From Fluviicola sp. (GTDB taxonomy: Bacteria > Bacteroidota > Bacteroidia > Flavobacteriales_D > Crocinitomicaceae): DNA of 48,929 bases. The notes below the pieces were generated by a model that saw nothing but the letters and a program-made list of their open reading frames with translations, was not told the DNA's origin and searched no databases. Within the stretch, counting starts at the first letter, position 1, and the number at the start of each line of letters is the position of its first letter. Shown piece by piece: positions 9,318 to 18,865 of this stretch. The translations under genes were made by a program, and so were the position numbers. The DNA is taken from the NCBI GenBank assembly GCA_002733985.1, contig NVXP01000004.1:1-48929 (forward strand), written 5' to 3'.

Positions 9318-11540
9318 ATGTCATTAAGATTATTTTTAGTTTCGACAGTAACTCTCTTCTTCGGAACTTCTGCATTTTCACAAATCACCGTTGACAACAC
9401 GGCAACGCCAACCCAAGCAGTGAACAATTTAATTGGTGCTGGAGTAACAGTAAGTAACATTAGTTTCACAGGAAATACGAATCAAATTGGAACCTTTGAT
9501 GGAACCGCATCCAACATTGGCTTACCAAGTGGTGTTATTCTCTCATCAGGAACAATTTTGGATATCGTTCCACCAAATCAGCCATCTGGTGCAGGTTTTG
9601 GAAACCCTGGAGATCCAGATTTATTAACTGTTGCACAATCGGTTACATCGAATCCTCAGTCAGGAATGATTAACTCTACTTTTGATGCTGCCATTCTCGA
9701 ATTCGACTTTATTCCAACTGGGGATTCAGTTAAGTTCAACTTTGTTTTCGCTTCTGAAGAATACACTACTTATATTAACACCCAATTTAATGATGCCTTC
9801 GGGTTCTTCATTAGTGGACCTGGTTTTGGAGGGCCATTTGCTGCTCCTGCTGGTTTCCCAATGGGAGCTGAAAATCTTGCTTTTGTTCCAGGAACAACAG
9901 ATCCAATTACAATCTCTACGATTCACCCAGGATTAAATGCTGCTTACTATGTTAGTAATACTGCGGCAACACAATCCTTCAATGGATTCACAATTCCGAT
10001 GACGATTGAGTTCGAAGTTGTTTGTGGTCAGACGTATCACTTTAAATTTGCAGTAGCTGATTGTCAAGATGATTTCTTGGACACCGGAGTATTCCTTGAA
10101 GCTAATAGTTTCTCTTCAGCTGCGGTAGATGTTGCTGTAGCGACAGTTTCTGGAGATACAGCAGTATACGAAGGGTGTACATTTGCAGACTTCATCTTCT
10201 CACGGACAGACTCTACAGATACATTGACTATAACGTATGATATTACTGGTACGGCAATTGATGGAACTGATTATAACGCTCTTGGAACTTCTATTACTTT
10301 CCTTCCTGGTGTGGATACCGTTATTATTACTCTTAACCCAATTGCAGACGGTATAATTGAGCCGGGAGAATCAGTAATTATTACAGCCTATACTGTTAAC
10401 TCATGTGGGGATACCATCGCCTCAACTGGAACCGTTTGGATTTTTGATGAACCCTTTATGAGCATACTGGAAGACGATCCTGTCCTACTGTGTGGAGATG
10501 ACTCTCTGCTGGTCCACGCGTTTGCATCCGGTGGTTTTGCTCCTTATACTTATTCTTGGACAAATAATACTTCAACTACAGATTCAGCGTATGTCAATGC
10601 ATCGACTCTGGGACCAGTAGAATACTATGTCACAGCAACAGATGGTTGTGGTTACACAGTCACGGATACCGTCACTGTAACTTTGAATCAAACACTAGCT
10701 ATTGATACCCTAATCTCATTCCCATCCGCTCCATGTAATCCAACAGGTGCAGTTAGCGCAATTACTTCGGGTATGACAGGAGTTCCTTTATATGAATGGA
10801 CTGGACCTGGTGCCAATAGTCCAAACTCTATTGATGCAACTGTTTGGGAAGATCTTTCTCCAGGATGGTACTACTTTACAGTTACAGATAACGTATGTGA
10901 AGAAATGGACAGTGTATTTGTTGATGTTGAACCACCACCCGTTGCAAGTTTCACTGCAGCCCCACAGTTTGGATGTTCACCATTGAGCGTAACATTTACG
11001 AACACAAGTTCGAACGCTGTAAACTACGAATGGAATTTTGGAGGTACAATTGTTAACACGACAAGTACTGCCAATCAAATTCAAACATTCACGAATTCAG
11101 CATCTATTCAATTGATTGCATTTGATGCTGGAGGATGTTCAGATACTACGTATTCTTCAATCACTGTTTCTTCTTGTGGATGTACAGACCCTTCTGCTGA
11201 AAACTATGATCCAAATGCGGTTATTGATGATGGAAGTTGTTTCTATCCTCAACCGATTATTTATGTTCCGAATGTCTTTACTCCAAATGGTGATAATCAA
11301 AATGATATTTTCTTTATCGATGTAGAAAATGCATCTGATCTCGAGTTCATTATTTTGAACAGATGGGGAGGCCTTGTTTACGAAGCACACGGATTGACGT
11401 CAGCATGGAACGGATACCTTGAAGGTGGAAATTTTGCTCAAGACGGAACGTACTTCGTCAAGTATATCGTTACTGGAATTGACGGTAAATTGCATGAAGG
11501 ACATGGATTCGTTCAGTTAGTAGCTGGAAATAAACCTTAA
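9318..11540 (+). CDS. T9SS type B secreted protein with choice-of-anchor L and PKD domains
   Basis: The 740-residue exported protein has a signal peptide (1-22, ending GTSAFSQ). A choice-of-anchor L-type domain follows (about 24-265; VFASEEYTTYINTQFNDAFG, FKFAVADCQDDFLDTGVFLE). Next are a Calx-beta-like stretch (about 270-375), further beta domains including a PKD-like repeat (VASFTAAPQFGCSPLSVTF), a short Cys motif CTDPSAENYDPNA...DDGSC (about 620-640), and a gliding-motility-associated C-terminal domain (from 647: IYVPNVFTPNGDNQND to the end). That C-terminal domain marks export by the type IX system. It is probably a surface adhesin or structural protein. A terminator follows at 11559-11590. 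Confidence 0.92.
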   Translation: MSLRLFLVSTVTLFFGTSAFSQITVDNTATPTQAVNNLIGAGVTVSNISFTGNTNQIGTFDGTASNIGLPSGVILSSGTILDIVPPNQPSGAGFGNPGDPDLLTVAQSVTSNPQSGMINSTFDAAILEFDFIPTGDSVKFNFVFASEEYTTYINTQFNDAFGFFISGPGFGGPFAAPAGFPMGAENLAFVPGTTDPITISTIHPGLNAAYYVSNTAATQSFNGFTIPMTIEFEVVCGQTYHFKFAVADCQDDFLDTGVFLEANSFSSAAVDVAVATVSGDTAVYEGCTFADFIFSRTDSTDTLTITYDITGTAIDGTDYNALGTSITFLPGVDTVIITLNPIADGIIEPGESVIITAYTVNSCGDTIASTGTVWIFDEPFMSILEDDPVLLCGDDSLLVHAFASGGFAPYTYSWTNNTSTTDSAYVNASTLGPVEYYVTATDGCGYTVTDTVTVTLNQTLAIDTLISFPSAPCNPTGAVSAITSGMTGVPLYEWTGPGANSPNSIDATVWEDLSPGWYYFTVTDNVCEEMDSVFVDVEPPPVASFTAAPQFGCSPLSVTFTNTSSNAVNYEWNFGGTIVNTTSTANQIQTFTNSASIQLIAFDAGGCSDTTYSSITVSSCGCTDPSAENYDPNAVIDDGSCFYPQPIIYVPNVFTPNGDNQNDIFFIDVENASDLEFIILNRWGGLVYEAHGLTSAWNGYLEGGNFAQDGTYFVKYIVTGIDGKLHEGHGFVQLVAGNKP

Positions 11541-12449: not shown

Positions 12450-13646
12450 TTAATACAAAAAGTTGTGATACGGGTATCGAACTTGAAAAATGCGTTTCAC
12501 TTCGTCGTAAACAACTTGTTTGAACTCCTCAATGTTGCCCTTGTTTTGTGCTGAAATGAACACACATTTGGTATCATTCAATTTCGCCATCCAGGTCTTT
12601 TTCAATTCTTCAAGAGAAGGATTTGCGTCAGTATCAGGAATCTCTCCTTCTTCGAGCGCTACGTATTGATACGCATCCATTTTATTGAAAATAACAATGG
12701 TAGGTTTATCGCCTACTCCAATTTCATTCAAGGTTTCATTCACCACTTGGTATTGTTCTTCAAAGTTCGGGTGAGCAATATCTATAATGTGGATCAAGAC
12801 ATCTGCCTCGCGTACCTCATCCAAGGTTGATTTAAATGATTCTACCAATTGATGAGGCAACTTTCGGATGAACCCAACCGTATCGGCCATCAAGAAAGGC
12901 AAATTTTCAATTACGACTTTTCGAACAGTCGTATCGAGCGTAGCAAACAATTTATTCTCTGCAAACACTTCTGACTTGCTGATCATGTTCATGATCGTGC
13001 TTTTCCCAACATTGGTATATCCAACAAGAGCCGCACGAACCAATTGACCTCTATTCCCTCGTTGCACAGACATTTGCTTGTCGATGCGTTTCAGTTTTTT
13101 CTGGAGCAGGGCAATTTTATCCATAATGATTCGTCGATCGGTTTCAATCTCCGTTTCCCCCGGCCCACGCATTCCAATACCTCCTTTTTGACGATCAAGG
13201 TGCGTCCACAAACGAGTTAATCGAGGCAGTGCATATTGCAACTGCGCCAATTCAACTTGTGTTTTGGCATGCGATGAACGTGCTCTACTTGCAAAAATAT
13301 CCAAGATCAAACTATTTCGATCCAATACTTTTAACTCTAAGTAAGCTTCAATGTTTCGTAACTGAGACGGGCTTAATTCATCATCAAAGATGACCAATTC
13401 AATTTGATTTGATTTCACGTAATCACGAACCTCTTCCAACTTCCCTTTACCCACGTAGGTTTTCGGGTTAGCCATCTGCATTTTCTGCATAAACGTATGA
13501 ACAGTAATCGCTCCAGCCGTTTCAGCTAAGAATGCCAATTCATCAATGTAATCCTTTGCTTGAGCTTCAGTAGTTTGTTGCGCGATCACACCGACCAGCA
13601 CACACTTTTCATCTACCGCATCTACAAGAACGTGTCCTTCATTCAT
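12450..13646 (-). CDS. hflX: GTPase HflX
   Basis: A ribosome-associated GTPase that splits or rescues stalled 70S ribosomes, 398 residues from ATG 13646. The N-terminal HflX domain has TYVGKGKLEEV, then a glycine-rich linker GGIGMRGPGETEIETDRR (155-172), then the G domain: G1 GYTNVGKS (209-216), G3 DTVG (255-258) and G4 NKMD (321-324). The frame is open to 13685, but the N-terminus there would be an odd CxC-rich extension, and ATG 13646 overlaps the cytochrome gene stop by 8 bases, as tightly packed operon genes do. It is the last gene of the 14447-12450 operon. Confidence 0.95.
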   Translation of the reverse strand: MNEGHVLVDAVDEKCVLVGVIAQQTTEAQAKDYIDELAFLAETAGAITVHTFMQKMQMANPKTYVGKGKLEEVRDYVKSNQIELVIFDDELSPSQLRNIEAYLELKVLDRNSLILDIFASRARSSHAKTQVELAQLQYALPRLTRLWTHLDRQKGGIGMRGPGETEIETDRRIIMDKIALLQKKLKRIDKQMSVQRGNRGQLVRAALVGYTNVGKSTIMNMISKSEVFAENKLFATLDTTVRKVVIENLPFLMADTVGFIRKLPHQLVESFKSTLDEVREADVLIHIIDIAHPNFEEQYQVVNETLNEIGVGDKPTIVIFNKMDAYQYVALEEGEIPDTDANPSLEELKKTWMAKLNDTKCVFISAQNKGNIEEFKQVVYDEVKRIFQVRYPYHNFLY

Positions 13647-14004
13647 TATTTTCTTCTTTTCGCATTGACATGACATACTGAACAACTGCTTCGCGTTCTT
13701 TTTCTGTCGTCAATAAATATTCGAATGGAGGCATTGTGCCCTTCCCTTCTTTTATAATTTTGAGTATTGCAGGCTCATCTAATTTCGATTTTGTCAAATC
13801 CTTTGATCCTGAATTACCCAAGTTGCCCTCTGGTCCATGACACGAAATACATTGATTCGTATATAGCAATCGACCATCAACCTCAACATTTATCTGATCG
13901 TCTTTAACTGTCTTGATTTCACCCTGCGTACAGGACGAAAGAATTACCATCGCCAAAGGCAGCAGCGTCACTAATCCAACAAAAGATACTGTTTTTAAAA
14001 CCAT
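13639..14004 (-). CDS. Monoheme cytochrome c lipoprotein
   Basis: The 121-residue protein has a lipoprotein signal with lipidation at C25 (AMVILSSC), so it is anchored facing the periplasm. One class I cytochrome c domain follows: heme attachment CISCH (C52, C55, H56) and axial Met M91 in GKGTMPPFEY. It probably shuttles electrons in a respiratory chain. It overlaps the membrane protein gene upstream by 10 bases and hflX downstream, so all three are co-expressed. The partner oxidase or reductase is not in the window. Confidence 0.92.
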   Translation of the reverse strand: MVLKTVSFVGLVTLLPLAMVILSSCTQGEIKTVKDDQINVEVDGRLLYTNQCISCHGPEGNLGNSGSKDLTKSKLDEPAILKIIKEGKGTMPPFEYLLTTEKEREAVVQYVMSMRKEENNE

Positions 14005-14447
14005 GCTGCTCTCAATGCTTCACGGAACGGCCAAGGAATCATTGCCAAAATGATTAACAAACCGATTGAATATGAAATTAGAATTTTACGATGCTTATCG
14101 CGTGTTCCTTTCAATTTCTTTTCAGTCTTGCTTCGTCCTATTGTTACCACTGCAATTGCTGCAACCATTCCCAATAAATGTTCTAGTCCATAAAAACGGT
14201 ACATTCCTCCCGCTACATCACTGGACATCCACCCTTCAACAAAATTCACTTTAACTGAAGTGAAATAAAGAGCAAGTCCAATTAGCAACTGAATGTGCAA
14301 CATAATCATTGCGAACAAATTGATCATTTTGTCCTTTTTTTCGTATTTCCCAGATGTTTGAGATTTCGCTGCATTAAAGATTGCGAAGACCAATAAAAAA
14401 AGTGCTACCCATCGTAGTCCTGAATGTGCGTGAATCAATGCGCTCAT
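13995..14447 (-). CDS. Small multi-pass membrane protein, cytochrome b-like
   Basis: From ATG 14447 the protein has 150 residues and about four transmembrane helices (LRWVALFLLVFAIFNAA; FAMIMLHIQLLIGLALYF; LLGMVAAIAVVTIG; ILISYSIGLLIILAMIPW). Histidines lie at the helix ends (SALIHAHSGLRW, MLHIQLLIG, YGLEHLLGM), which would suit heme ligation; such proteins are often labelled cytochrome b-like in Bacteroidota. Pairing with a lipoprotein cytochrome c by 10-base overlap supports a redox role, but heme binding is inference. An upstream TTG/ATG extension to 14498 would disrupt the N-terminus and is unlikely. Confidence 0.8.
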   Translation of the reverse strand: MSALIHAHSGLRWVALFLLVFAIFNAAKSQTSGKYEKKDKMINLFAMIMLHIQLLIGLALYFTSVKVNFVEGWMSSDVAGGMYRFYGLEHLLGMVAAIAVVTIGRSKTEKKLKGTRDKHRKILISYSIGLLIILAMIPWPFREALRAAWF

Positions 14448-14465
14448 AATTGTAAGATTTTGCCG

Positions 14466-14495
14466 TAAAAATACGAAAATGGCAGACTGATTCAA
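14466..14495 (-). promoter_or_regulatory. Candidate promoter of the membrane protein-cytochrome-hflX operon
   Basis: On the minus strand, TTG (14495-14493), 19 bases, then TATTTTTA (14473-14466), seven of eight matches to TAnnTTTG. It sits about 20 bases upstream of ATG 14447. Confidence 0.4.
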
Positions 14496-14538
14496 CAAAG
14501 AACTTCACCATCTCACACCAAATTCTTAATTTCACAGG

Positions 14539-17500
14539 ATGATGCGATCCTTGAACCTGCTTAAAGTAGCTTTACTCTTTTTTATTTCGACAATTACCGC
14601 GAGTGCTTTTGCTCAGATTCCGCAAAACGGAGTTTCGCAATCACACGCACCATATTATGCACTTACGAACGCACGAATAGTTGTTTCACCCACAGAAACA
14701 CTGGAGAATGCGACAATCCTGATCAAAGGAACGACCATAGAAAAAGTAGGGAAACGCGTATCGATTCCAAAAAATGCTGTAGAGATCGATTGTGAAGGAC
14801 TCACCATTCTTCCATCCTTCATTGAACTTTCAAGTGATATTGGAGTTAAGAAGGCAGTTTCAGGAAAAAGTAATGGACGACCTCAACTAGAATCATCAAA
14901 ATCTGGTTCTTACTATTGGAACGAATCAATTCATCCAGAGATTGACGCTTCAGAAGGCTACACGAATGATCAGAAAGCAAACAAAACATATTTAGATGCA
15001 GGATTCGGTTTTGTCTTTACACATCAAAAGGATGGTGTTGCTCAAGGACAAGGCTCACTTGTCTCACTTGCGAAGTCGGGTGTGTACAAACCAACCATGA
15101 ACATGGGAACAGGAAGTTACTTTTCGTTCTCAAAAGGAGTTTCGCACCAAACGTACCCATCTTCACAAATGGGAGCAATTGCACTTCTTCGCCAAGCTCT
15201 TTACGACACTAAGTGGTATAGTACAAACGAACAGACAGAGCGAAACCTCTCACTTGAAGCATTGAATTCACAATGGGACCAAACGAGTTTTTTCTATACC
15301 AAAGACAAATGGGAAATTCTTCGAGCGGCGAAAATTGCAAACGAATTTGATCGCTCCTTTACCTACATAGGTTCGGGTGATGAATATGAAATTACCGAAG
15401 AGCTCAAAGAATTATCAAGTACAATCATTCTTCCAATCAACTTCCCAAAGGCTTACGATGTAACTGACCCATACACGGCACGACAAATTCCATTGAGTGA
15501 TTTGAAGCAATGGGAAATGGCACCATACAATCCTTCGATACTCGTTGAAAATGGCATTCCAATCTGTATCACAATGGATGGGCACAAAACTTCCAAGGAA
15601 TTTTGGGCTCACTTAAGACAGGCTGTTGAACATGGATTATCAAGTTCAGAAGCGCTAAAAGCGCTTACCATGAATCCTGCAAAATTATTGGGTGTCGATT
15701 CAAAATTAGGATCATTGGATGCTGGGAAAATCGCCAGTTTCACCATTTACTCTTCGAATCCTTTGGAAGATGCAACGACGAAACTACTTGAAACATGGTC
15801 CTTGGGTGAACGTACAATCATCAAAAAGCACGAAAATTATAAATTAGCAGGGACGTATAGTTTACTTATTGGTGATAGAAGATTTCCATTAAAAATTGAA
15901 GCCAAGCCAGAAGGGAAATTCTCAGCAACAATCCCAGTAAAACCAAATGCTACTACTGAAAAATCAGATAAGAAGGGCTCGAAAGTGACAATGGACATCG
16001 ACCAAAATGATATCACCTTGCAATTCGCAGTCGATGATTCTATTTGGAAGGGAAGCGTGAACCTTCGTGGTAAGATCAATCACAGACTAAAAATATTTGA
16101 AGGAGATGGAATGACTCCAACTGGAGAATGGGTTAGATGGCACGCTGTTCAAAAAGAAAAAGGTAAGCCAGCTAAATCTCCCGAGAAAAAAGTATTCAAA
16201 ACTGATTCACTCGCCGTTGCATGGTTTCCAAACATGGCATATGGATTTGATTCTCTACCTGAATCACTACCGATCTTATTTAGCAATGTCACCATTTGGA
16301 CAAACAGCATCGAAGGAATCGTGAAAAAAGGCTACGTTCTTGTTGAAAACGGAAAGATCCAATACGCAGGAACTAGAGAACCCAACTCTCCAAGAGGAAC
16401 AATCAAGATAGACGGTACGGATAAACATTTAACTTCAGGAATTATCGACGAGCACTCGCACATCGCGATTTCGAAAGGTGTAAACGAAAGCGGACAAGCA
16501 ATTTCAGCTGAAGTATCCATTGGTGATGTTGTTCACCCTGATGATATCAATATCTATCGTCAAATTTCTGGCGGTGTTACAGCAGCTCAACTCTTACATG
16601 GTTCAGCGAATCCGGTTGGAGGTCAATCGGCTTTGATTAAACTTAAATGGGGATCAACTCCTGAGGAAATGTTAATCGACAATGCTCCGAAATTCATCAA
16701 GTTTGCGCTTGGGGAAAATGTGAAGCAATCGAACTGGGGAAGATCAAACAGTATCCGTTTTCCACAAACGCGAATGGGCGTTGAACAAGTTTACTACGAT
16801 GGCTTCGATCGCGCTCGTGCTTATCAAGCGGAAAAATTAAATTCTGGCGGGAAGCACCGAGTTGATCTAGAATTGGAAGTACTGAGTGAGATATTAAACA
16901 GAGAACGATTTATCTCTTGTCACTCTTACATTCAATCAGAAATCAATATGCTGATGCATGTTGCAGATTCACTTGGATTTAAAATCAACACATTTACGCA
17001 CATCCTAGAAGGATATAAAGTTGCAGATAAAATGGCCGCTCATGGCGCTGGAGGTTCTACCTTCTCTGACTGGTGGGCATACAAATACGAAGTAAATGAT
17101 GCAATTCCTTACAATGCGAAGATGATGCACGATCAGGGTGTCGTTGTTGCAATCAACTCAGATGATGCTGAAATGGGACGTCGATTAAATCAAGAAGCTG
17201 CGAAAGCAGTGAAATATGGAGGAATGGACGAAGAAGACGCTTGGAAAATGGTGACCCTGAATCCAGCGAAATTATTGCATTTGGACGATCGAATGGGTTC
17301 TGTTGAAGTTGGGAAAGATGCAGATTTAGTCTTATGGACAGCACATCCTTTGTCAATCATGGCGAAAGTTGATTACACCGTAATTGATGGTGTTATTCTT
17401 TTTGATGCTGAGAGAGACCTTGAACTGTACGACAGAAACCAAGCTGAGAAAGCACGGATTATTGCAAAAATGCTCAAAGCGAATGCTTCGGGAGACAAAG

Positions 17501-17583
17501 AAGATTTCGTAAAGAAGAAAAAACGCCACTATCACTGTAATACACTTGGTGAAGAAGGTTCAACAGAAGAAAATCAACATTAA
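14539..17583 (+). CDS. Exported tandem amidohydrolase-family protein (N-terminal copy degenerate)
   Basis: The 1014-residue protein has a signal peptide (1-25, ITASAFAQ) and two amidohydrolase-like modules joined by a beta-rich segment (~435-560). The C-terminal module (~575-970) keeps the metal site: H639 and H641 (IIDEHSH), H795 (SCHSY), H821 (THILEG) and an Asp at 875/876 (AINSDDAEMG). It ends with the usual VTLNPAKLLHLDDRMGSVEV and VGKDADLVLW. The N-terminal module keeps the composite-domain ends (LTMNPAKLLGVDSKLGSLDA) but reads LPSFIELSSD at 91-100 where HxH belongs, so it is probably non-catalytic. Substrate unknown; a cyclic amide or peptide derivative in the periplasm is possible. The next gene starts right after its stop. 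Confidence 0.9.
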   Translation: MMRSLNLLKVALLFFISTITASAFAQIPQNGVSQSHAPYYALTNARIVVSPTETLENATILIKGTTIEKVGKRVSIPKNAVEIDCEGLTILPSFIELSSDIGVKKAVSGKSNGRPQLESSKSGSYYWNESIHPEIDASEGYTNDQKANKTYLDAGFGFVFTHQKDGVAQGQGSLVSLAKSGVYKPTMNMGTGSYFSFSKGVSHQTYPSSQMGAIALLRQALYDTKWYSTNEQTERNLSLEALNSQWDQTSFFYTKDKWEILRAAKIANEFDRSFTYIGSGDEYEITEELKELSSTIILPINFPKAYDVTDPYTARQIPLSDLKQWEMAPYNPSILVENGIPICITMDGHKTSKEFWAHLRQAVEHGLSSSEALKALTMNPAKLLGVDSKLGSLDAGKIASFTIYSSNPLEDATTKLLETWSLGERTIIKKHENYKLAGTYSLLIGDRRFPLKIEAKPEGKFSATIPVKPNATTEKSDKKGSKVTMDIDQNDITLQFAVDDSIWKGSVNLRGKINHRLKIFEGDGMTPTGEWVRWHAVQKEKGKPAKSPEKKVFKTDSLAVAWFPNMAYGFDSLPESLPILFSNVTIWTNSIEGIVKKGYVLVENGKIQYAGTREPNSPRGTIKIDGTDKHLTSGIIDEHSHIAISKGVNESGQAISAEVSIGDVVHPDDINIYRQISGGVTAAQLLHGSANPVGGQSALIKLKWGSTPEEMLIDNAPKFIKFALGENVKQSNWGRSNSIRFPQTRMGVEQVYYDGFDRARAYQAEKLNSGGKHRVDLELEVLSEILNRERFISCHSYIQSEINMLMHVADSLGFKINTFTHILEGYKVADKMAAHGAGGSTFSDWWAYKYEVNDAIPYNAKMMHDQGVVVAINSDDAEMGRRLNQEAAKAVKYGGMDEEDAWKMVTLNPAKLLHLDDRMGSVEVGKDADLVLWTAHPLSIMAKVDYTVIDGVILFDAERDLELYDRNQAEKARIIAKMLKANASGDKEDFVKKKKRHYHCNTLGEEGSTEENQH

Positions 17584-17584
17584 G

Positions 17585-18865
17585 ATGAAGCAAATACTAT
17601 TTCTAATCACATTCGTATCCAGTATTGCATTTGCGCAAGAATCTTCGCGAATTTTGGTCAGTGGGGGAAATCTTCATATCGGAAACGGAAAAGTACTTGA
17701 GAGTGCCGTAATCGGTATTGAAGATGGGAAGATTGCCTTCATAAAGAATGCATTCGCATATACCGTTGATAAAACTGAATGGGATACAATTATAGATGTC
17801 ACTGGACAAGAAATCTATCCTGGGTTCGTCGCACCAAACTCAACTCTAGGATTAACCGAGATTGATGCCGTCCGAGCAACACGCGATTTTGATGAAGTTG
17901 GAACATACAACCCTCACATTCGTTCTCAAATTGCCTTTAATGTTGAATCGAAGGTAATGAGCACAGTTCGATCGAATGGTGTTCTATTAACCCAAGCCAC
18001 TCCACGAGGAGGAATCATTTCTGGAAGCTCTGCTATCATGACGACAAGTGGATGGAACTGGGAAGACGCAACGGTAAGAAAGGACGATGGAATTCACCTC
18101 AATTGGCCATCAAGTATGCAAGGTGGAGGCTGGTGGGCTGAACCTGCCCCAAAGTCGAAGAACAAGAAATACGCTGAGAACAAACGTGCAATTGCCAATT
18201 TCTTTGAAATGGCGAAAGCATATACTCAGGAAAAGAATCCTGAGAAGAAAGATCTACGCCTTGAAGCGATGCGCGGATGTTTTGATGGAACTAAACGCGT
18301 TTACATTCATGCGAATGAATTACAAGAATTGGTCGATGTCCTTGAATTTGCAAAAAACCTTGGATTGGCATTTCCTGTGATTGTTGGAGGATATGACTCT
18401 CATTTAATAACAGAACAACTCAAGGATTCTGAGATTCCAGTAATGGTCGTTCGACCACACAGTTTACCAGAAAATGAAGGAGATGCGGTAAATCATCCGT
18501 ATCGTTTGCCTGCACTACTTCGTGAAGGTGGAGTAAAGTTTTGCATTCAAAATGAAGGAGACATGGAAGCGATGAACGCTCGAAACTTGCCGTTTTTAGC
18601 TGGTACTGCGATGGCGTATGGATTGAGTGAAGAGGATGCTGTGAGTTCGATCTCTTTGTGGAGTTGTGAGATCATGGGAATCGATAAGAACTACGGTAGC
18701 GTGGAAAAAGGTAAGTCGGCAACGTTCTTTGTTTCCGAAGGAAATGCACTCGATATGATGACCAACCAAATGACTATTGGTGTCGTGAATGGCGAATTGA
18801 TCGAACCAGCGAATTTCCAATTCGAACTGAAAGAAAAATACACGAAGAAATATTCAGAGAACTAA
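17585..18865 (+). CDS. Exported amidohydrolase-like protein without HxH motif
   Basis: From ATG 17585, one base after the upstream stop, the protein has 426 residues and a signal peptide (MKQILFLITFVSSIAFAQ). The N-terminal composite beta domain (ILVSGGNLHIGNGKVLESA) and the C-terminal close (EIMGIDKNYGSVEKGKSATF) are amidohydrolase-like. At the place of the metal-binding HxH it reads YPGFVAPNSTLGL (78-90), so a canonical binuclear centre cannot form. Some positions remain, such as VYIHANELQEL. It resembles the degenerate N-terminal module of its neighbour and is probably its partner or a regulatory subunit. A bidirectional terminator follows. Confidence 0.88.
   Translation: MKQILFLITFVSSIAFAQESSRILVSGGNLHIGNGKVLESAVIGIEDGKIAFIKNAFAYTVDKTEWDTIIDVTGQEIYPGFVAPNSTLGLTEIDAVRATRDFDEVGTYNPHIRSQIAFNVESKVMSTVRSNGVLLTQATPRGGIISGSSAIMTTSGWNWEDATVRKDDGIHLNWPSSMQGGGWWAEPAPKSKNKKYAENKRAIANFFEMAKAYTQEKNPEKKDLRLEAMRGCFDGTKRVYIHANELQELVDVLEFAKNLGLAFPVIVGGYDSHLITEQLKDSEIPVMVVRPHSLPENEGDAVNHPYRLPALLREGGVKFCIQNEGDMEAMNARNLPFLAGTAMAYGLSEEDAVSSISLWSCEIMGIDKNYGSVEKGKSATFFVSEGNALDMMTNQMTIGVVNGELIEPANFQFELKEKYTKKYSEN

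Follow-up and report, generated by a model that had tools for sequence, protein, structure and literature searches.

Enzymes of the amidohydrolase superfamily are often oligomers, and the superfamily also has non-enzymatic members in the CRMP proteins, which are eukaryotic and homologous to dihydropyrimidinase; we know of no CRMP protein that is encoded beside an active sister. Catalytic subunits with an inactive or supporting partner have been described in several other systems. The 2-aminoisobutyrate hydroxylase AibH1H2 is a heterodimer with one catalytic subunit, the other more likely maintaining the structure, and a review relates AibH2 to PtmU3, repurposed from the amidohydrolase superfamily (PMC12141560). 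The same review describes TlxIJ, a non-haem oxygenase of talaromyolide biosynthesis, in which the active partner, only weakly active when alone, needs for its substrate binding a loop that comes from the catalytically incompetent one (PMC12141560). In the Aquifex aeolicus dodecamer of dihydroorotase and aspartate transcarbamoylase (ATC), the isolated dihydroorotase subunit is inactive and becomes active in the complex (PMC3880350). Here we describe two adjacent genes of Fluviicola sp. (Bacteroidota), located on contig NVXP01000004.1 of assembly GCA_002733985.1, of which positions 1 to 48,929 of the forward strand were analysed (48,929 nucleotides; hereafter the window). The first gene encodes a 1014-residue protein (P0001) made up of an amidohydrolase-like module (N), a middle domain (M) and a second amidohydrolase-like module (C); the second encodes a protein with one further module of this kind (P0002, hereafter T). 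Our reading, held with moderate confidence, is that the products of both genes form a single exported heteromer, a metal-dependent hydrolase whose catalysis falls to C, with N and T as long-standing partners that have no catalytic role.

A preliminary description of this DNA had read the 1014-residue protein as a degenerate module followed by an intact one with DEHSH, H795, H821 and Asp 875/876, and the comparison with other loci bears this out. Modules were cut from the loci (482 in total) and 57 duplicates dropped, leaving 425 distinct sequences, with modules matched over fewer than 330 residues excluded. In the alignment to 3ooq, the nearest solved structure, all five metal and catalytic positions (HHHHD) were retained in each of the 142 distinct C modules. 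The paired assignment of Asp 875/876 resolves in favour of D875, which is invariant (142/142); position 876 is an aspartate in only 119/142. Every C module also has a lysine at the K721 site (142/142), as do none of the N modules (0/140) and a single T module (1/135); by analogy with the superfamily, K721 is a candidate metal ligand. Pocket windows near the five sites of C had a conservation of 0.865 against a module average of 0.712. Judged by its residues, C is probably a metal-dependent hydrolase.

The other two modules have lost this site. N carries LPSFIELSSDIG at the HxH region, where 3ooq carries FPGFVDAHSHIG, and T has APNSTLG at the same place, as had been claimed for a third module without HxH in the next gene, one base later. 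The five ligand positions of T are occupied by N85, T87, H242, G268 and E324 in the window, such that one of five is kept in T (H242) and, similarly, one of five in N (D347). A full ligand set was found in 0/140 N and 0/135 T modules, with a maximum of two positions retained in any N or T. The strand-6 histidine is mostly replaced by glycine (111/140 N and 128/135 T), and among the five ligand columns this glycine is the only residue that is well conserved in both. The best-conserved positions of T lie in the loop after strand 1 (G89, E92, D101, E104 and G106), and those of N in the stretch from Y206-P207-x-S209-x-M211-G212 up to R218-Q219 and D223. Going by its residues, T is a homologue by descent and not an enzyme of the family.

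Pfam Amidohydro_1 matches P0001 in two stretches (E 4e-31) and T with E 5e-6 (26.6 bits against a cut-off of 25). 3ooq is a Thermotoga maritima structural genomics entry titled just 'amidohydrolase', a single protein with an intact metal site; no mention of it was found in the open-licence papers searched. It is the nearest solved structure to both C and T by sequence (E 2e-50 and 4e-16 respectively). In VIA-align comparisons the C model superposed on 3ooq with Z 45.6 and a root mean square deviation of 2.0 over 366 residues (next listed entry Z 24.6), and the T model with Z 44.8 and 2.6 over 360 residues (next listed entry Z 25.3). On their modelled folds and their sequences, C and T belong to the amidohydrolase superfamily, in the 3ooq lineage. 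The model of N is about as confident, and its relationship shows in the sequence; for P0001, the VIA-align rows span the C part only. NCBIfam amidohydrolase models match N weakly. Three named enzyme families were considered and rejected: the HutI imidazolonepropionase (TIGR01224; C alone 47.9 bits against a curated cut-off of 298.15), the Xaa-Pro dipeptidase (NF051886; P0001 81.9 bits and C alone 41.0 against 500) and the NagA N-acetylglucosamine-6-phosphate deacetylase (TIGR00221; C alone 43.7 bits against 225.65). No NCBIfam model approached its cut-off, whether among the best 25 matches for P0001 (of 58) and for the isolated C module (of 39) or among the complete sets for P0002 (9) and for the isolated N module (24).

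Gene co-occurrence, a check proposed in the preliminary description, showed T to be present in nearly all genomes with a strong P0001 match. Of 247 Bacteroidota genomes sampled, 131 had a P0001 match at E<=1e-80, which may stem from C alone or from N-M-C, and 130 of these had T (E<=3e-35); the sole exception is G066, where part of the C module is masked. Conversely, no genome of the sample had a T match at E<=1e-20 without a P0001 match at E<=1e-38. Eight genomes had only weak T matches (E 2e-5 to 7e-4), two of them (G120 and G284) without a P0001 match, and these are taken as other amidohydrolases. In the family of the window (155 genomes), P0001 (E<=1e-80) was found in 136 and T (E<=1e-40) in 138: 135 genomes had both, 16 neither, one P0001 only and three T only. 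In the P0001-only genome (G014) the gene runs off its contig, and contig ends account for two of the T-only genomes (G369 and G436). These counts ignore kinship. An inactive homologue of the catalytic subunit is co-inherited with the active one.

The arrangement of the genes was also examined. With the window's own genome excluded, P0001 and T were adjacent on one strand in 113/129 pairs, their matched parts being no more than 769 bp apart, and N accompanied C in all 142 loci read (30 + 20 + 12 + 80). N and C were fused in 80/80 best-scoring loci, a set that favours fused forms because it holds the best-scoring of at least 590 matches to a fused query; T followed in 74 of these (one partial, at a contig end) and lay elsewhere in the genome in the remaining six (6/6), giving T in 80/80. 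In split forms, N, C and T were neighbours on one strand and in that order at 19/19 stand-alone C loci, these being drawn from about 57 such genomes and picked where T was linked. That N and C are fused in some lineages, and that other lineages show separate export-like starts, is to be expected if the parts work next to each other, but is no proof of contact. In one genus of the window's family (g146), P0001 and T were on different contigs in two genomes (G325 and G328) and adjacent in a third (G324), reflecting either a recent separation or assembly breaks. A metagenome-assembled genome record named Kiloniella (L180) has a Bacteroidota-like layout of N-C plus T with 47% identity to the window; Kiloniella belongs to the Alphaproteobacteria, and the contig is perhaps mis-binned or misnamed.

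Retention of two inactive copies beside an active one, as the preliminary description had put it, is matched by recurrence across the phylum and by the pattern of substitution. When the window was compared with G023, a close relative that carries both genes, the proportion of differences at nonsynonymous sites (pN) was 0.083 (N), 0.060 (C) and 0.080 (T), and that at synonymous sites (pS) was 0.72-0.75; only pN and pS are quoted, and no dN/dS, because synonymous sites were saturated even against the nearest relatives used. With pN far below pS, all three modules are under strong purifying selection, N and T evolving somewhat faster than C.

A module tree was built from 80 rows. N, C and T each contributed 22 modules chosen to be diverse, and there were four each of two further Bacteroidota groups described below (C2 and T2), 3ooq, and five plasmid rows. 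N, C and T formed one clade each, with values of 100, 99 and 98 in the Shimodaira-Hasegawa-like approximate likelihood ratio test (SH-aLRT), and C grouped with the active members of two Sphingomonadales pairs (SH-aLRT 98). One branch separated the active from the inactive modules (99), and it held when ligand columns and their neighbours were left out (96). An approximately unbiased (AU) test rejected C, T and N as one clade (p 0.000165, with long branches and a group chosen after seeing the tree), and a single local origin of the three within the sampled set is rejected. The simplest reading of the tree would be that one sister lineage lost the metal site long ago. The tree is unrooted, its inactive branches are longer and it has few rows from outside Bacteroidota (the five rows, on three plasmid records, plus 3ooq), which leaves room for horizontal transfer or for several losses.

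Related pairs of active and inactive genes occur elsewhere. Eleven further genomes had moderate matches to both queries, and the three that were read (G090, G124 and G137) harbour another system of two genes, one active (C2) and one degenerate (T2), of which G127 has a fourth copy. C2 and T2 (L130-L133, Bacteroidota) form a clade each; judged by their scores, the remaining moderate-match genomes probably carry C2 and T2 as well. In Sphingomonadales, adjacent active and degenerate genes were found on Novosphingobium and Qipengyuania plasmid records (L217 4722-7621 and L218 4833-7618 respectively). The strand-6 histidine has mostly changed to glycine in each inactive lineage examined, namely N, T, T2 and the Sphingomonadales partner. 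Outside Bacteroidota the sampling covered plasmid records, among which there were further matches to Cytobacillus, Nonomuraea and Monoglobus; there was also one to a Hymenobacter record. We entertain, as a tentative extension, the possibility that the active/inactive partnership arose once, before the Bacteroidota and Alphaproteobacteria copies, and gave rise to several obligate heteromeric hydrolases with pseudo-subunits shaping the active site of the one catalytic chain. The metal site would then have been lost in one of two sister subunits, leading to C/T plus N, to C2/T2 and to the Sphingomonadales pair. If true, there is a widespread class of pseudoenzyme-dependent amidohydrolases whose members currently pass as separate amidohydrolases.

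For the window, we propose that C is the sole catalytic part, in which the HxH pair, K721, H795, H821 and D875 probably hold the metal or metals and D875 would activate water. N, joined to C via M, and T would be pseudoenzymes from the same 3ooq-like ancestor whose metal site was lost long ago. Occupying ancestral oligomer positions, they could hold C active, or complete or gate its substrate site; a sister subunit without a metal site could survive by providing an interface or a lid. The recurrence of the trio across Bacteroidota suggests that the inactive copies are needed as partners of the active one, and we infer the physical assembly of N-M-C with T, the partner role and the stoichiometry. 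The likeliest contacts would be the T loop after strand 1 (E92, D101, E104 and G106) and the N stretch Y206-P207-x-S209-x-M211-G212. Low-confidence loops lie by or within conserved stretches (T 93-99, with a predicted local distance difference test score (pLDDT) below 50, and C approximately 721-740, with block means of 71 and 57), and these might be places where contact orders the chain.

A number of observations weigh against this proposal. Co-occurrence and gene neighbourhood would be equally expected from two enzymes of one pathway. The preliminary description had regarded genes that often occur apart as telling against a complex; T is indeed not adjacent to P0001 in 16/129 genomes, yet it is present in all 16 and both genes are kept, so that a shared transcript is not required. 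Fourteen of these pairs are on different contigs, some of which may be assembly breaks, and two are on the same contig, 0.97 and 1.4 Mb apart. In G326, a genome of the window's family with an assembly completeness rated at 99%, T is full but P0001 gives no match at E<=1e-80. A 2.63-Mb Acetoanaerobium (clostridium) record has one matching place only, a single active gene, and so active relatives without a partner seem to exist. Finally, histidines at the strand-4 and strand-5 positions (H171 and H242) are kept in 61/135 T modules, that of the window included, making a residual metal site possible in that subset. Separation of the genes and their usual neighbourhood would both suit an arrangement in which N-M-C and T act separately in one periplasmic pathway, co-inherited and sharing no complex. 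We consider this improbable given that a catalytic site can be recognised in only one of the three modules, that N and C are fused throughout the 80 loci, albeit a set favouring such forms, and that an active module paired with an inactive one is seen again in C2/T2 and in two Sphingomonadales records.

The retained H171 and H242 bear on another explanation, that other residues still allow T, and perhaps N, to bind a metal or to carry out a different reaction. Four H/D/E/C residues at the six sites examined were found in 15/140 N and 1/135 T modules, and three in 19 N and 22 T, which lends it something; by contrast, 22/135 T and 20/140 N modules have no ligand-type residue at any of these sites, and no set of such residues is conserved across N or across T (six sites examined, the rest of the modules not being searched). 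We therefore give this explanation little credence; metal binding by other residues, which the preliminary description had raised as evidence against inactivity, does not hold family-wide and is possible in the 61 T modules. It is also unlikely, in our judgement, that T and N are sensors whose former active sites bind a ligand without turnover and regulate C allosterically. Such a role would agree with the confident models of the barrel fold, with the strong purifying selection on T and N and with the strand-6 change to glycine, which is defined and non-random. However, conservation of pocket residues in the inactive modules, set beforehand as a test, was no better than the module average (0.556 versus 0.534 for N and 0.567 versus 0.570 for T), and the strand-6 glycine stands alone among the five ligand columns. 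That the degenerate modules are decaying duplicates without function is hardly credible: their somewhat faster evolution relative to C would fit, but pN is far below pS in both, they are conserved over the phylum, and very few genomes have one gene alone. The reading of N and T as non-catalytic partners of C is the one we retain.

The features of the two genes are collected in Table 1. The stop codon of P0001 (TAA, 17581-17583) is followed by a single G and then by the ATG of T at 17585. The longest mechanical open reading frame (ORF) for T begins at TTG 17546, inside the end of P0001, and would overlap the first gene; ATG 17585 is the likelier start, preferred because a clean signal-peptide-like N-terminus results, as judged by eye. 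The two genes overlap by 4 to 26 bases in 5/72 loci holding both (starts chosen by script), which suggests translational coupling in these. Signal-peptide-like starts, again judged by eye, indicate that P0001 and P0002 are probably both exported, and to that extent the periplasmic location put forward in the preliminary description agrees with our findings. In the 19 split loci, a simple hydrophobicity scan gave a signal-peptide-like start in 56/57 N, C and T proteins, the scan taking the most hydrophobic start within 90 residues with no cut-off and no control; the sole exception was an N truncated by the end of the analysed stretch.

Table 1. Positions in the window of the two genes, their modules and their metal-site residues (pTM, predicted template modelling score).
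Feature	Position	Strand	Basis
1014-aa protein N-M-C (P0001), stop included	14539..17583	+	ORF; AlphaFold2 mean pLDDT 87.4, pTM 0.84
Probable signal peptide of P0001, ~residues 1-25, ...ASAFA/Q	14539..14613	+	by eye
N module, ~residues 38-425, degenerate; S98, D100, Y253, G278, D347 at five ligand positions	14650..15813	+	module alignment
M domain, ~residues 430-545, eight beta strands	15826..16173	+	secondary structure of AlphaFold2 model
C module, ~residues 571-965, probable intact metal-dependent hydrolase	16249..17433	+	3ooq E 2e-50
HxH, H639 and H641 (DEHSH)	16453..16461	+	invariant, 142/142 C modules
K721, candidate sixth (bridging, carboxylated) metal ligand	16699..16701	+	strand 718-723 of model
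H795, strand 5 metal ligand position	16921..16923	+	142/142 C modules
H821, strand 6 metal ligand position	16999..17001	+	142/142 C modules
D875, strand 8 metal ligand and catalytic base position	17161..17163	+	142/142 C modules
426-aa protein T (P0002), degenerate amidohydrolase, stop included	17585..18865	+	ORF; AlphaFold2 mean pLDDT 91.1, pTM 0.90
Probable signal peptide of P0002, ~residues 1-17, ...SIAFA/Q	17585..17635	+	by eye
N85-S-T87 of T in place of HxH	17837..17845	+	alignments

The M domain sits between N and C in P0001 and was absent from the preliminary description. That of the window had no Pfam match up to E 5, and the M domains of three relatives gave PilN as their only Pfam match (E 0.099, below the cut-off); against PDB sequences no match was better than E 1.3. 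M evolves faster than the other parts (pN 0.177, window versus G023). Split loci with an N ORF of approximately 570-610 amino acids have space for an M-sized stretch after the N module; the N ORFs of approximately 450-500 amino acids in L097 to L099 have no space for one.

Upstream of P0001, on the reverse strand (12450-14498), are genes for an HflX-like GTPase, a small c-type-cytochrome-like protein and a membrane protein, all assigned by eye; HflX-like ORFs recur in 10/120 compared loci and membrane-protein-like ORFs in 8/120, again by eye. Further upstream (9318-11540) is a 740-amino-acid secreted-looking protein with, by eye, a C-terminus like the type B sorting domain of the type IX secretion system. 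No universal neighbour gene was found among the 120 loci compared. Neighbours that recur in Flavobacteriaceae, named by eye, are a PepD-like dipeptidase ORF (18 loci) and a cyclophilin-like ORF (13 loci); the Qipengyuania pair is flanked by genes annotated as a peptide MFS (major facilitator superfamily) transporter and an FKBP isomerase, and the single Acetoanaerobium gene comes after an ORF that by eye resembles aminopeptidase P. Neighbouring genes give a weak hint at peptides, which may be coincidence. If pressed for a substrate we would guess, doubtfully, at the amide bond of a peptide or of an N-acyl amino acid.

As N and T accompany C through much of the phylum, both fused and split, what they do could be tested in laboratory Bacteroidota by simply removing genes, and the trio offers a well-sampled case for asking why inactive enzyme copies persist and when a metal site was lost. 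T-like proteins are annotated 'amidohydrolase' (Hymenobacter) and 'amidohydrolase family protein' (Qipengyuania) in two records; such proteins have few or none of the usual catalytic residues, which is a warning against transferring function from a superfamily name.

Among the matches listed in searches of open-licence papers, none was on this trio. Metal-dependent bile salt hydrolases (PMC13081902) belong to PF07969, and the text on them contains neither 'subunit' nor 'heterodimer'. Of the systems introduced at the outset, AibH1H2 is unlike the trio in being an oxygenase with an Fe/Mn cluster, in having two subunits, and in that AibH1 still binds a metal, which is regarded as structural (PMC12141560). 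The A. aeolicus dihydroorotase is a member of the amidohydrolase superfamily like C, but its partner is aspartate transcarbamoylase and not a degenerate amidohydrolase. TlxIJ matches the model that we propose for the trio and differs by its unrelated fold and chemistry. Pseudo-subunits are already known; what is new, as far as these searches show, is a trio of two inactive modules and one active one that recurs across a phylum, fused in some lineages and split in others.

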